A stretch of DNA of 47,678 nt from a virus. Shown piece by piece: positions 2,902 through 38,744 of this stretch (its first letter is position 1; every line of letters starts with the position of its first letter). The stretch lies in the IMG/VR virus record IMGVR_UViG_3300027896_000068, positions 1 to 47,678 of that record; one strand, 5' to 3'. The position numbers and the translations under genes were made by a program. The notes under the pieces were generated by a model. That model was not told where the DNA came from. It saw only the letters and a list, made by a program, of their open reading frames with translations, and searched no databases.

Positions 2902-3366
2902 TTAAAATCCGAAGTCTGAGCAGAGGACGAAGAAGTCCACTACCGCCTCGTTTATGGTGTCGGAATCGACATCATAAAGGGTTAGATAGCAATCCGTTGT
3001 GGCGAGATACCCAACGCCGGTGGAGTTCACCAGGAAGTTCAGGACACCCAGGGTAGTCGTCTTCCATCCGACGGTAGCGAACGACAGGGAATCCAGTAAT
3101 CCGTCCGCGTCGATAACCGTGCTCCCGTCCGTATAAAGCCCCAGATGCGTATCGGTAATGTCCGTATCAGCGGTTATCACCTTGGCGTAGCCGGCGAGAA
3201 TCCAGGTGTTGGCCGGGATCTTCATGATCGCCATGAGTTTTGTCGTGGCCAGATAGTTGGCCGACTGGGTGAAATCGACTCTCTTCTTCGCCACGAACAT
3301 TCTTCCCTTGCCGTCCCACGGAAGCGCGGTGCCTTCATAGGTTGTTAAATCAACGTCAAAAGCCAT
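2902..3366 (-). CDS. Capsid-associated (putative decoration) protein, tandem copy 1
   Basis: This 154-residue paralogue of the 2409-2873 protein begins MAFDVDLTTYEG. A longer frame exists to 3405, but the ribosome site AGAAGGAGCAACACA sits directly before ATG 3366. That start also matches the N-terminus of the second copy, so the shorter form is chosen. Divergence in the middle third (ADTDITDTHLGLYTDG against ANTGVTDVDLGLFTTA) with conserved ends implies an old duplication with separate surfaces. Two hairpins with the same loop lie between this gene and the capsid gene. Confidence 0.75.
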   Translation of the reverse strand: MAFDVDLTTYEGTALPWDGKGRMFVAKKRVDFTQSANYLATTKLMAIMKIPANTWILAGYAKVITADTDITDTHLGLYTDGSTVIDADGLLDSLSFATVGWKTTTLGVLNFLVNSTGVGYLATTDCYLTLYDVDSDTINEAVVDFFVLCSDFGF

Positions 3367-3382
3367 TGTGTTGCTCCTTCTG

Positions 3383-3443
3383 ATAGGTGGGGAAGAAAGC
3401 CCCACCTATTGATTCAGTGTGTAAGCGTGGAAGAAAGCCACGC
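3383..3443 (-). promoter_or_regulatory. Two hairpins with identical CTTTCTT loops after the capsid gene
   Basis: In the leftward mRNA, GCGTGG/CCACGC (3425-3443) and ATAGGTGGGG/CCCCACCTAT (3383-3409) each close the same 7-base loop CTTTCTT. They occupy the space between the capsid stop and the ribosome site of the next gene. Neither has a U run, so they are more likely RNA stability, processing or attenuation elements than strong terminators. Confidence 0.45.
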
Positions 3444-3452
3444 CATGGTTTC

Positions 3453-4274
3453 TTACTTCCGGATGTAGAACATCCCCAGGGAAACGGGCTTCATGACCTT
3501 GTATCCGTAGACGTTCAGACCACGAACGAGGTCACCAAAGGTGCTCTCTGCCCGCAGGGTTTCCGTCTTGATCAACTGTGACGCGAACGTCAGAGCTGAT
3601 TTGTGACCGAACGGAGCGTAGTAGCAAGTGGTGCTCGTCAGCGTGGTATCGGCCAGGGAATACAGGTTATTGGAGATGTAAATCGTGAACTCGTCAATCG
3701 ATCCGATCCGGCCGTTCCTCATGGGCGTGACCTGGCCACTCACCAGGGCGTCTCCAGTCAGGGCAACGTCTTTCAGATCGGACTTCTTGATAAGTCCAGC
3801 CGCCCATGCGGGCAGCACCATCCACCGGTCGCTCCGGGGGATATTCTGCTCATCCAGCACCGAGCCCGCGTCCACGATCGCTTCGAGAACGTTGGTCTTG
3901 GTGAACTGGAGAGGCGCACCCACCGCACCTAGGGCATAGGAAACGGATTTCACACCGGCGGTATTGCCGTAATTGTATGCGGCCGCTCCGGAATAAAACG
4001 CTGAATCCGCCAGGATGCCCTGATCGATGCTGATGCCCATCTGATACCCGGCGTCCATCGTCCAGTCTTCGAACAGCCGTAAATCCGTCTGGACCTGCAC
4101 AACATCGTCACAGGTGAATCCGAAATATTTACCTTTGTCGATGTTGAGCTCGACCGGGGTGCTGGTCGGGCGTTGATAATTGAGGTTCTGCCCGATCGTG
4201 TAAGTGTTAATAGTGATATCCGGGGTCGTGCGCACGATAACTTTGTCACCATACGCTTTGATCTCGCCTTCATA
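3453..4274 (-). CDS. Major capsid protein, exon 2
   Basis: Exon 2 encodes 273 residues starting YEGEIKAYGDKVIVRTTPDI and continuing to YKVMKPVSLGMFYIRK. Joined in frame to exon 1 (4980-5120), it makes a 320-residue coat protein whose spliced junction reads FGDIANTD-YEGEI. NTDYEGEI followed by a GDxVxVRTTPDITI segment is characteristic of one branch of HK97-fold phage coat proteins. The coat forms the icosahedral shell with the scaffold encoded just upstream. Read unspliced, this exon has only an internal GTG start at 4235, which would lack the N-terminal arm, so splicing should be essential for a functional capsid. Confidence 0.92.
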   Translation of the reverse strand, partial: YEGEIKAYGDKVIVRTTPDITINTYTIGQNLNYQRPTSTPVELNIDKGKYFGFTCDDVVQVQTDLRLFEDWTMDAGYQMGISIDQGILADSAFYSGAAAYNYGNTAGVKSVSYALGAVGAPLQFTKTNVLEAIVDAGSVLDEQNIPRSDRWMVLPAWAAGLIKKSDLKDVALTGDALVSGQVTPMRNGRIGSIDEFTIYISNNLYSLADTTLTSTTCYYAPFGHKSALTFASQLIKTETLRAESTFGDLVRGLNVYGYKVMKPVSLGMFYIRK

Positions 4275-4979
4275 CTTTTTGTTATCGCTAACTTTTACTG
4301 TTAGCTTCTAACGGTTTTCCCGTTAGGTCAGACTGTATCTTGTTCCGCAATTTATATTCGCGGAGCTCATCGTGCAGTCGTTGAGGATTCCTATTGTGTA
4401 TCGTTGCCACCTGTTCGATGATTTCAAAATCACGTTCATCGTAATTGGCGCGTCCATAATTGCCATAAGCTAATTTTACCCATTTGGAATTAAGTCTCCG
4501 ATCACAGAATTCTTGAATCAGCCTTGCTTCTGTTTTCTTACTGATTATGTAGAGAGATAAAATATTCAGCGCCTTCACTACTCTTTTAAGACCCTGAATC
4601 TTTATGGTCCACCTTGCCTTTCTCTGTCGGCCATTTGAACTCTTCCAAGAATTGGCTTGCTCGACAGATTGAAACTGAACATAAAAAGGAATGTTCGAGT
4701 TTCTTAAAACTTCTAGGCAAGTATCTATGATCGTTTTATCTGTGTTCGTTATGGCAATGAGTGGAGAGAACAGCAACGTCTCTCTTTTGGTCTGTTTGTG
4801 GAGCCGATGATGATTGATCGTAATACATCCTTCACCATCTATGATTCCACCAAACCAACACAACAGTCTTTCCTGCTGATTGACTCCCTGTATAGGAGAT
4901 TGTTCCATAATTAGGACCCCTATCTTTTGAAGTTATTCCAGCATATAGATGAGTTTTACACCGACCATGAAGGTTTTTA
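4275..4979 (-). ncRNA. Group I self-splicing intron in the major capsid gene
   Basis: Minus-strand pairing supports every boundary. P1: the 5' exon end ACACCGAT pairs with internal guide GTCGGTGT (4958-4965) over 8 bp with a U-G wobble at the splice site. P10: exon 2 TATGAAGG pairs with CCTTCATG just before the guide. The base before exon 2 is the expected terminal G (4275). Core elements: P (TGCTGGAA, 4936-4943) pairs with Q (CAATCAGCAGG, 4872-4882) as P4; R (CCTCAACGACTG, 4375-4386) pairs with S (AAGATACAGTC, 4331-4341) as P7; P8 is TCCGC/GCGGA (4344-4364). Two hairpins (CTAACGG/CCGTTAG and GCTAAC/GTTAGC) form the P9 region. Subgroup not assigned. Confidence 0.93.
4288..4908 (-). CDS. LAGLIDADG homing endonuclease encoded in the capsid intron
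   Basis: This 206-residue protein carries one LAGLIDADG-type motif, LLCWFGGIIDGEGCI, around residues 15-29. It is preceded by VNQQER, also seen in organellar intron endonucleases. A single motif suggests a homodimer of the I-CreI kind. The expected role is cutting intronless capsid genes to spread the intron. The frame does not sit neatly in a loop of the ribozyme: its first codons run through the Q/P4 strand and its last 40 codons run through R, P8, S and P9. The RNA core and protein therefore constrain each other. Start ATG 4908 has AGGGG eight bases upstream. Confidence 0.9.
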   Translation of the reverse strand: MEQSPIQGVNQQERLLCWFGGIIDGEGCITINHHRLHKQTKRETLLFSPLIAITNTDKTIIDTCLEVLRNSNIPFYVQFQSVEQANSWKSSNGRQRKARWTIKIQGLKRVVKALNILSLYIISKKTEARLIQEFCDRRLNSKWVKLAYGNYGRANYDERDFEIIEQVATIHNRNPQRLHDELREYKLRNKIQSDLTGKPLEANSKS

Positions 4980-5120
4980 ATCGGTGTTGGCAATGTCGCC
5001 AAAAACCGTCGCGGAGTAAAATTTGACCAGGATCTTACCTGACCAAATCTCCGGGATAAATTTGCTAGAGCCCGTCACATTAGAGTAGGCGGGCTGCGGT
5101 GCTACAAAAGGGTAAGGCAT
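4980..5120 (-). CDS. Major capsid protein, exon 1
   Basis: Exon 1 has 47 codons from ATG 5120, MPYPFVAPQPAYSNVTGSSK and on to FGDIANTD, exactly in frame with exon 2 after removal of the 705-bp intron. Without splicing, translation stops two bases into the intron (GAT-TAA), giving a 47-residue peptide. The ribosome site AAGGAG lies in the 3' arm of a stem-loop that reaches to the start codon. The gene follows the scaffold gene by 36 bp, the usual scaffold-coat order of tailed phages. Confidence 0.92.
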
Positions 5121-8331: not shown

Positions 8332-8697
8332 TTATTCATCCATGCAATCAACTACGGTTGCGTTTGCAGTCCCTCCAGCCCATGCCGGGGTGATCGTGAA
8401 AGAACCAACAAAGTCCGGAACGGGAAGAAGGAAATCAAGATTCCCGGTCACAATTTTGTACGTCTGCGCAGTCACCGTAATTTGATCGGTCGCGGATATA
8501 AAGACCGGAGCATATGTATCCGTGCTTAAGCCTCTGTCTGCTTTTGGCACATAGGCAACCGACAGGGTAACGTAAGATCCACCAGACCCTGGGGTATGTT
8601 TAACGAGTACCCTCACCCCTTTTTTGGTCGCCGGGCAGACATGCGTGAGAACATTTGTCCCAACCGGATCTGTTCGGGATGTTAAAAGATTCGACAT
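8332..8697 (-). CDS. Small virion-associated beta-rich protein, paralogue 2 of 3
   Basis: This 121-residue protein begins MSNLLTSRTDPVGTNVLTHV. It is a close relative of the next gene (8707-9078), sharing SRTDP, THxCPA, KADxGLST and a DQITVTxQT strand, and a more distant one of the gene at 521-871. The arrangement suggests a tandem duplication plus a transposed third copy at the far end of the late cluster. Likely a small decoration or tail protein; function is inferred from context. ATG 8697 follows a weak AGGAGT. Confidence 0.7.
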   Translation of the reverse strand: MSNLLTSRTDPVGTNVLTHVCPATKKGVRVLVKHTPGSGGSYVTLSVAYVPKADRGLSTDTYAPVFISATDQITVTAQTYKIVTGNLDFLLPVPDFVGSFTITPAWAGGTANATVVDCMDE

Positions 8698-8706
8698 GAT
8701 TTACTC

Positions 8707-9078
8707 CTATTGATCCATAAAATCGATGACGCAAACGCTGGTATCCCCACCCGTAAAGGTAGGAGTAATTTCAACCGCAGCCGCATAATCCGGAATTGGA
8801 ATCGGGATCACAAAGTTTCCCTCGGGAACCGTGAAGGTCTGGACCGTTACCGTAATTCGGTCAGCGACAGCCAGAAAGGACATTTGATACAGGTTTGTAC
8901 TTAATCCCTTATCTGCTTTCGGCAAAAAGGCGATGGCAAGGCTTATTGTCGAATTCCCATTCCCGGCGGTATATTTCACCAATGCCATCGTGCTATTCTT
9001 GATGGCCGGGCAGATATGGGTCACGATGCCGCCCGACACCGGATCGGTTCGAGACGTGAATGAATTGGCAGCAGGCAT
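8707..9078 (-). CDS. Small virion-associated beta-rich protein, paralogue 3 of 3
   Basis: This 123-residue protein begins MPAANSFTSRTDPVSGGIVT. It aligns with the 8332-8697 protein along its length (KADKGLST against KADRGLST, ADRITVTVQTF against TDQITVTAQTY) and ends in the shared acidic DFMDQ tail. A clear AAGGAGTAGTC ribosome site precedes ATG 9078. High Thr, Val and Ile content points to a beta-sandwich. No enzymatic motif is visible. Confidence 0.7.
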   Translation of the reverse strand: MPAANSFTSRTDPVSGGIVTHICPAIKNSTMALVKYTAGNGNSTISLAIAFLPKADKGLSTNLYQMSFLAVADRITVTVQTFTVPEGNFVIPIPIPDYAAAVEITPTFTGGDTSVCVIDFMDQ

Positions 9079-24496: not shown

Positions 24497-25504
24497 ATGG
24501 AAGATGAAATCCGCGAAGAAGAAGAATTAGAAAACGGGGAAGAACAGAAGAAAATTGAAATCAAGCTGCCTGGCTATCTGGATGAACTCAAGCCGGATGT
24601 TCGGCAGAATCTTCTTGAACTGTCCATCTTTTGTTCCCGTGAAAGATTCCTAAAACGGGCGAGACAGTCCATGAAGAATTATGTGGCCAGCATCAAGAAT
24701 ATACTTTCCGAAAAGGGCTGGACGGTGGCAAAAATCGAATTCGTGGAAGACCAGATTAATGCCGTCCAAAAGATGATCGATCAGGTCGAGAAAAATATCG
24801 ACCTATGCCTCTTCCGGATTTCGATCTGGACTCAATTTCTCGAAAAGATAAAAGGTCTAGGAGCCTCTACCGCAGGTGGGATTATCTCGACCATCGGTAA
24901 GATTGATAGATTCCCATCTATTTCTGCTTTGCGAAAATACTCCGGTTGGTATCCACAAGATGGTAAGGCGATCAGGAAAATCAGCGGGGCCAAGCTATGC
25001 TATAGCCCCAAGTTGAAGCAATACCTATACCATTTCGTCAGCGGGATCATGAAGGCGAAAGATCCTTATTACTATCCGATGTACCTGGCGGAGAAAGAGA
25101 GGATCTACAAGATTCATCCCGAATACGTGGATAGGAAGGCCACAAAGAAACAAAAGATCGATGGCATCCCAAGCCATGTTCACAAGATGGCCCTGAGAAA
25201 AGTTATTCAGATGTTTCAATCGGATCTCTTCTGCATCTGGAGAGACATCGAAGGTCTTCCCCCTACCCTGCCCTATGCAATAGCCGTTCTCGGGCATGAA
25301 CATTTCAGGAATCCGCTCACAGAGAATCCGTATTACAAAAAGAGCCCGCTGGACTTTGAAAACCAGCCAGCCGCTGCGAGCCACTATCTTCTTGAAAACC
25401 AAAAGAGAGTTGCGAGCCAGAGGTCCGGTGAAACCCAACGCACTGATGCGAACCAAGATCCGGGTGAAACCCCTCGCAGCTGTGTGAGCCAGGAGAATCA
25501 TTAA
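24497..25504 (+). CDS. IS110-type helix-hairpin-helix (Transposase_20-like) protein without DEDD domain
   Basis: The 335-residue protein begins with an acidic stretch. A helical region with coiled-coil character (about 45-115) follows, then IKGLGASTAGGIISTIGKID with RFPSISALRKYSGW (about 118-152), the HhH core of the IS110/IS116/IS902 C-terminal domain. Then come KLCYSPKLKQYLYHF, a His/Lys-rich segment (HVHKMALRKVIQMF, about 230-245) and PYAIAVLGHEHF. IS110 transposases also carry an N-terminal RuvC-like DEDD nuclease domain; none is present here, so transposition by itself is unlikely. The last 48 codons are array 2 units, giving ENQ-x9-type repeats. Arrays sit on both sides. Confidence 0.8.
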   Translation: MEDEIREEEELENGEEQKKIEIKLPGYLDELKPDVRQNLLELSIFCSRERFLKRARQSMKNYVASIKNILSEKGWTVAKIEFVEDQINAVQKMIDQVEKNIDLCLFRISIWTQFLEKIKGLGASTAGGIISTIGKIDRFPSISALRKYSGWYPQDGKAIRKISGAKLCYSPKLKQYLYHFVSGIMKAKDPYYYPMYLAEKERIYKIHPEYVDRKATKKQKIDGIPSHVHKMALRKVIQMFQSDLFCIWRDIEGLPPTLPYAIAVLGHEHFRNPLTENPYYKKSPLDFENQPAAASHYLLENQKRVASQRSGETQRTDANQDPGETPRSCVSQENH

Positions 25505-38584: not shown

Positions 38585-38660
<76 letters not shown>

Positions 38661-38667
38661 AAACTGA

Positions 38668-38744
38668 GGGTCGGTAGGATAATTGGTAATCCACTTGACT
38701 GTGGCTCAGGGATGATGCCAGTTCGAGGCTGGCCCGACCCTCCA
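38668..38744 (+). tRNA. tRNA with GUG anticodon (His), atypical end
   Basis: Acceptor GGGTCGG/CCGACCC is perfect, D-stem GGAT/ATCC, anticodon stem CTTGA/TCAGG with loop CTGTGGC (anticodon GTG), T-arm GCCAG/CTGGC, then T73 and encoded CCA. Bacterial tRNA-His normally has an extra G at -1 opposite C73; here the bases are A at -1 and U73. Histidylation by the host enzyme is therefore uncertain. Confidence 0.85.

Follow-up and report, generated by a model that had tools for sequence, protein, structure and literature searches.

Within the window, a metagenomic contig of 47,678 bases held as an IMG/VR virus record, the major capsid gene occupies minus-strand positions 5120..3453 and is interrupted by a 705-bp insert (Table 1). 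Read along the minus strand, the edges of the insert are ...GCCAACACCGAT/TAAAAACC...GATAACAAAAAG/TATGAAGGCGAG, and its removal yields the spliced junction GCCAACACCGAT/TATGAAGGCGAG. The product of exon 2 is a major head protein, as judged by matches to phrog_267 (E 3e-43) and Pfam Phage_capsid_4 (E 9e-9), and exon 1 starts downstream of an AAGGAG ribosome site. The first codon of the insert is a stop in the unspliced frame, so that only 47 residues would be made before translation ends; capsid reading resumes at YEGEI. A first-pass annotation of this DNA had placed the split between NTD and YEGEI and had predicted that exact excision of 705 bp restores a 320-residue coat. Minus-strand sequence and translation agree on both counts: deletion of 4979..4275 in silico leaves one continuous 320-aa frame with both exons intact and in phase. 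The G+C content of the insert is 40%, against 55% in exon 2.

Comparison with intronless coat genes, which the same annotation had recommended, gives the same boundaries. The closest relative found (L002, 66% identity) has a capsid gene that is uninterrupted at the intron site, and the N-terminal region is uninterrupted in 232 of 240 fetched capsid-bearing loci (a few contigs counted twice). The NTDYEG target codons are intact in 71 of the 85 relatives with a readable motif, as expected for a homing site. Exon 1 by itself is too short as a search query; an alignment of four exon 1 sequences was usable and, as a query, revealed no further introns near the site occupied in the window.

Elsewhere in the window, the capsid gene is closely followed downstream by two adjoining paralogous genes that start with MAFDVDLTTYEGTALPWDGKGR (2409-2873 and 2902-3405, minus strand), and three small paralogues at 521-871, 8332-8697 and 8707-9078 (minus strand) have in common SRTDP...THI near the N-terminus. 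There are tRNA genes for Met (2328-2403, minus), Pro (38585-38660, plus) and His (38668-38744, plus). The phage has an SU10-type portal and encodes a transposase-like protein (phrog_4285, integration and excision) at 24497-25504 on the plus strand.

Table 1. Exons, intron elements and intron-borne gene at the capsid locus of the window (slashes mark splice sites)
Feature	Positions	Strand	Basis or pairing partner
Exon 1, major capsid gene	4980..5120	-	141 nt, 47 codons, MPYPF...ANTD; translation and alignment to uninterrupted relatives
Group I intron, 705 bp, U/UAAAAACC to ...AACAAAAAG/UAUGAAGG	4275..4979	-	P1/P10 pairing, RF00028 partial matches, core word pattern, covariation
P10 guide strand CCUUCAUG	4966..4973	-	Pairs with exon 2 UAUGAAGG at 4274-4267, 8/8
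P1 guide strand GUCGGUGU	4958..4965	-	Pairs with exon 1 ACACCGAU at 4987-4980, 8/8, U-G at splice site
P3 5' strand CUCAUC	4948..4953	-	Partner GAUGAG 4371-4366
P4 5' strand UGCUGG	4938..4943	-	Partner UCAGCA 4879-4874
Putative homing endonuclease gene, 206 aa	4288..4908	-	phrog_5046, weak Pfam LAGLIDADG_1, family alignment, pN<pS, overlap map
P7 5' strand GACUG	4375..4379	-	Partner CAGUC 4335-4331
P8 hairpin UCCGC...GCGGA	4344..4364	-	
P9 hairpin CUAACGG...CCGUUAG	4308..4326	-	
P9.1-like hairpin GCUAAC...GUUAGC	4287..4305	-	Then GAUAAC and terminal G at 4275
Exon 2, major capsid gene	3453..4274	-	822 nt = 273 codons + stop; phrog_267, Pfam Phage_capsid_4

Ribozyme core and guide sequences

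The insert contains helices P3 to P9 and a P9.1-like hairpin, all in the correct order, and the P3, P4, P6, P7 and P8 core has the order of the P3/P7 pseudoknot. The P4, P7 and P8 elements recognised in the first pass are thereby joined by P3, P5, P6, P9 and the P9.1-like hairpin, and the 8-bp P1 with a U-G pair at the 5' splice site, the 8-bp P10 with exon 2 and the terminal G were all read correctly. J7/3 is only 3 nt long, shorter than in the intron of a capsid relative (L003), and neither P7.1 nor P7.2 was seen in the window intron. P1 and P10 together comprise 16 of 16 possible pairs, whereas shuffling the first 60 intron bases 200,000 times gives at most 14. The window matches a word pattern for the P7/P3/P8 core at a single place, and 100 shuffles yielded no match at all. 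A helix-only descriptor without the conserved words gave similar counts in shuffled sequence; it is unspecific and was given no weight.

A covariance-model search had been suggested as a check, and it recovers group I matches in part but misses the curated cut-off. In the 1.1-kb stretch searched, Rfam Intron_gpI (RF00028) scores 24.3 bits (E 9e-4) at 4477-4308, and a separate group I P4-P5 piece scores 13.1 bits at 4943-4874, both below the gathering score of 50. The cut-off is missed because about 480 coding bases of the endonuclease gene, lying between the two P6 strands, split the model. Four sister introns with an identical layout reach only 33-44 bits. The low score is read as a shortcoming of the model: the cut-off is a database threshold and does not define these introns.

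Comparative evidence comes from two alignments, in both of which columns were trimmed by hand to fit the structure, so that the resulting counts are biased towards it: in the window lineage (window, L361, L349, L317, L347 and L273) 100% of cells are paired and five pairs are changed on both sides, and of the 32 pairs in the cores of L003, L031, L007 and the window 17 show double changes, 98% of cells being paired. The lineage double changes fall in P3 and P7; P4 and P6 are invariant in the lineage and thus uninformative on covariation. Between 0 and 2 of 500 shuffles reach the lineage covariation measures. A better control than the hand-trimmed columns is provided by P1 and P10: the exon letters with which they pair differ in L361, L007 and L349, and the match is re-established in each. 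Taken together, the sequence tests are without exception consistent with a group I intron at the splice sites first proposed, and compensatory changes occur in P1, P3, P7 and P10 in relatives whose introns share its architecture.

An endonuclease reading frame over the core

The earlier reading is sound as far as it went, but it lacked the homing endonuclease gene, the probable mobility of the intron and the recurrence of capsid genes as targets. The endonuclease reading frame lies on the same strand as the capsid gene, 8-9 nt downstream of a GGGG stretch resembling a ribosome site. It starts in the P5 loop, has its bulk in the P6 loop and overlaps P4', P6, P7, P3', P8, P9 and most of P9.1, amounting to almost all of the 3' half of the ribozyme. 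Group I introns with endonuclease genes overlapping the core are already known (PMC3984707).

The encoded protein has a single LAGLIDADG-type motif, GGIIDGEG, in which the acidic residues are kept. G25, E26 and G27 are invariant in a six-member family alignment, and the relatives L349, L317, L347 and L290, found by the core pattern, also keep GEG. Its match to phrog_5046 (E 1.7e-8) is to a PHROG annotated 'HNH endonuclease', and its Pfam LAGLIDADG_1 match is weak (E 0.026, below cut-off); a LAGLIDADG-type protein is the probable assignment from the weak Pfam match and the HNH-labelled PHROG. Most of the relatives begin with (N/D)QQER, a start for which the P4'/P6 bases around UCAGCAGGAAAG code. 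By codon comparison, pN is 0.26 and pS 0.80, with third positions accounting for 102 of 194 differences, indicating that the protein is under purifying selection. BLAST of intron and endonuclease against named phages returned no matches, nor did scans of viral and genome contigs that used the single endonuclease sequence as query, and the family was reached only through the ribozyme-core pattern.

Sister introns and rival accounts

The nearest relative of the endonuclease (57% identical over 184 residues) is encoded in L361 (IMG/VR 3300025323_000088), where a 700-bp intron occupies the homologous junction VITNKD/YEGEI of a divergent phrog_267 capsid gene. The two introns share the codon junction and the layout; the L361 intron has a 6-bp P1 and a 7-bp P10, and differs in that no P9.1 hairpin was seen and in its much diverged capsid gene. 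The capsid proteins of the window and L361 are 42% identical over only 64 residues, and the contrast with the closer endonucleases suggests horizontal movement. A sister intron at the same junction and an endonuclease under purifying selection argue for a mobile element and not debris, and the window intron is probably such an element.

Other capsid relatives contain introns of different kinds. L007 has a group I intron at the same junction as the window, with a LAGLIDADG_2 gene, and L003 and L031 have group I introns 12 nt downstream of that junction, with an HNH gene in L003. The endonucleases of L007, L003 and the second L031 intron are located in the P8 region, unlike that of the window, which is in the P6 loop. 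As these endonucleases are of other types, and that of L007 has no significant similarity to the window endonuclease, separate invasions are indicated. The capsid gene of L031 (1117-2630) holds two group I introns, one after YEG and one after KGKY, the second with a LAGLIDADG_2 gene. In L221 (2420-3460), an insert of about 1 kb around capsid residue 123, without an Rfam intron match, has a two-motif LAGLIDADG-like reading frame. In L290 (2681-4363), two introns whose endonucleases are related follow one another in tandem; the short exon before them reads like an SU10-type capsid and matched no family.

The major capsid gene of this phage is almost certainly interrupted by a mobile group I intron that encodes its own homing endonuclease, with splicing, cleavage and homing predicted from sequence. 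In the capsid pre-mRNA, the guide sequence would hold the end of exon 1 through P1 and the start of exon 2 through P10. Guanosine bound at P7 would attack after the U of the P1 U-G pair, and exon 1 would then attack after the terminal G, joining exons that encode the 320-aa coat. The endonuclease, translated from unspliced RNA or from excised intron, would cut at the conserved NTD/YEG codons in co-infecting phages whose capsid genes lack the intron, and repair from the intron-bearing copy would spread the intron.

The insert might instead be a group I intron that still splices but has lost its mobility, the protein acting mainly as a maturase that aids splicing. A Thermotoga group I intron is reported to have LAGLIDADG maturase-like activity (PMC3984707), and overlap of gene and core would tie both functions together. 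On the other hand, the acidic GEG position is kept in all aligned members of the family, and the scatter of the intron among divergent hosts speaks for movement, which makes this account unlikely. It is very improbable that the insertion inactivates the gene, as a pseudogene or an assembly chimera in a population that relies on intronless copies. The metagenomic origin of the contig would allow a chimera, but neither exon is damaged or out of phase, selection acts on the endonuclease, the ends of the insert pair with the very exons they interrupt, and a second contig, that of L361, has a sister insert at the same junction.

Removal as an intein, or by ribosome bypassing, would dispense with RNA splicing altogether, and endonucleases of this type do also occur in inteins. 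However, the entering frame stops at the first codon of the insert, Pfam finds no intein domain, and an RNA core with matching P1 and P10 is present, so that the probability of either route is close to negligible. If the insert is a group I intron, as preferred here, the gene needed in largest amount would depend on RNA splicing; this step of the first-pass annotation is a sound inference from the sequence.

Capsid genes as intron targets

The lineage was followed by an alignment-based endonuclease scan followed by a strict word pattern for the intron core, which places a core around the endonuclease gene in 15 of 80 loci. The downstream exon is assignable in 13 of these 15 and encodes a major head protein in all 13 (L361, L373, L380, L387, L394, L404, L413 (=L349), L414, L418, L419, L428, L432 (=L347) and L433). 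The exons come from six families, phrog_267, 1357, 10, 9953, 371 and 1328, and 11 of the 13 loci are absent from the query alignment. Similarly, head-protein families top the tally of 67 non-redundant downstream reading frames, 37 of which fall in two capsid families according to local iterated profiles.

For comparison, 91 other group I introns were collected with the core pattern; among the matches listed, at least 26 and at most about 43 have capsid exons, the upper figure being the 26 plus the listed head-protein families with overlap ignored. Other exons in this set include those of ribonucleotide reductase, DNA polymerase and terminase. Although these introns were not selected for their exons, a single family of major head proteins, phrog_1328, accounts for 26 of the 91 downstream exons in the comparison loci (L242-L358), again among the matches listed. 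The difference between 13 of 13 and even the upper figure of 43 of 91 is significant (p 0.00015). However, common descent links the loci, and the comparison draws on the matches listed only, which makes the capsid bias a lead and not a survey. The balance tips slightly towards an intron lineage, defined by a P6-loop, phrog_5046-type endonuclease over the core, with major capsid genes as its special target and a history of movement between capsid families alike in fold but with hardly any sequence in common. Its cause may be that capsid transcripts or genes are privileged in co-infection, or that the endonuclease is retargeted within conserved capsid codons.

Introns in capsid genes have precedents. 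The mycobacteriophage LittleE has a group I-like intron of about 0.8 kb in its major capsid gene, with a LAGLIDADG-type (I-CreI-like) endonuclease, and splicing of the capsid gene was shown by RT-PCR and N-terminal sequencing (PMC3706429). LittleE thus resembles the window in combining a capsid-gene intron with a LAGLIDADG-type endonuclease. It differs in its capsid family and phage, and in having the endonuclease gene on the opposite strand, whereas the window has it on the sense strand, overlapping the ribozyme core. The lactococcal phage Tuc2009, known here from a citation in that paper, is likewise described as having an intron in a capsid subunit gene (cited in PMC3706429). Recent studies of phage introns name polymerase, terminase and reductase genes (PMC11878797, PMC12363816), and no survey of capsid genes as intron targets was found in the open-access literature. 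Capsid-gene introns were therefore known before, and the capsid bias of the lineage to which the window intron belongs is the part that may be new.

Introns of this kind score below the Rfam cut-off, and annotation therefore leaves split coat genes that resemble missing or truncated capsids. The window adds a clear case in which the most abundant structural protein of a virus is predicted to depend on a ribozyme. It suggests that in uncultivated phages group I introns have capsid genes among their standing targets, alongside those for polymerase, reductase and terminase.
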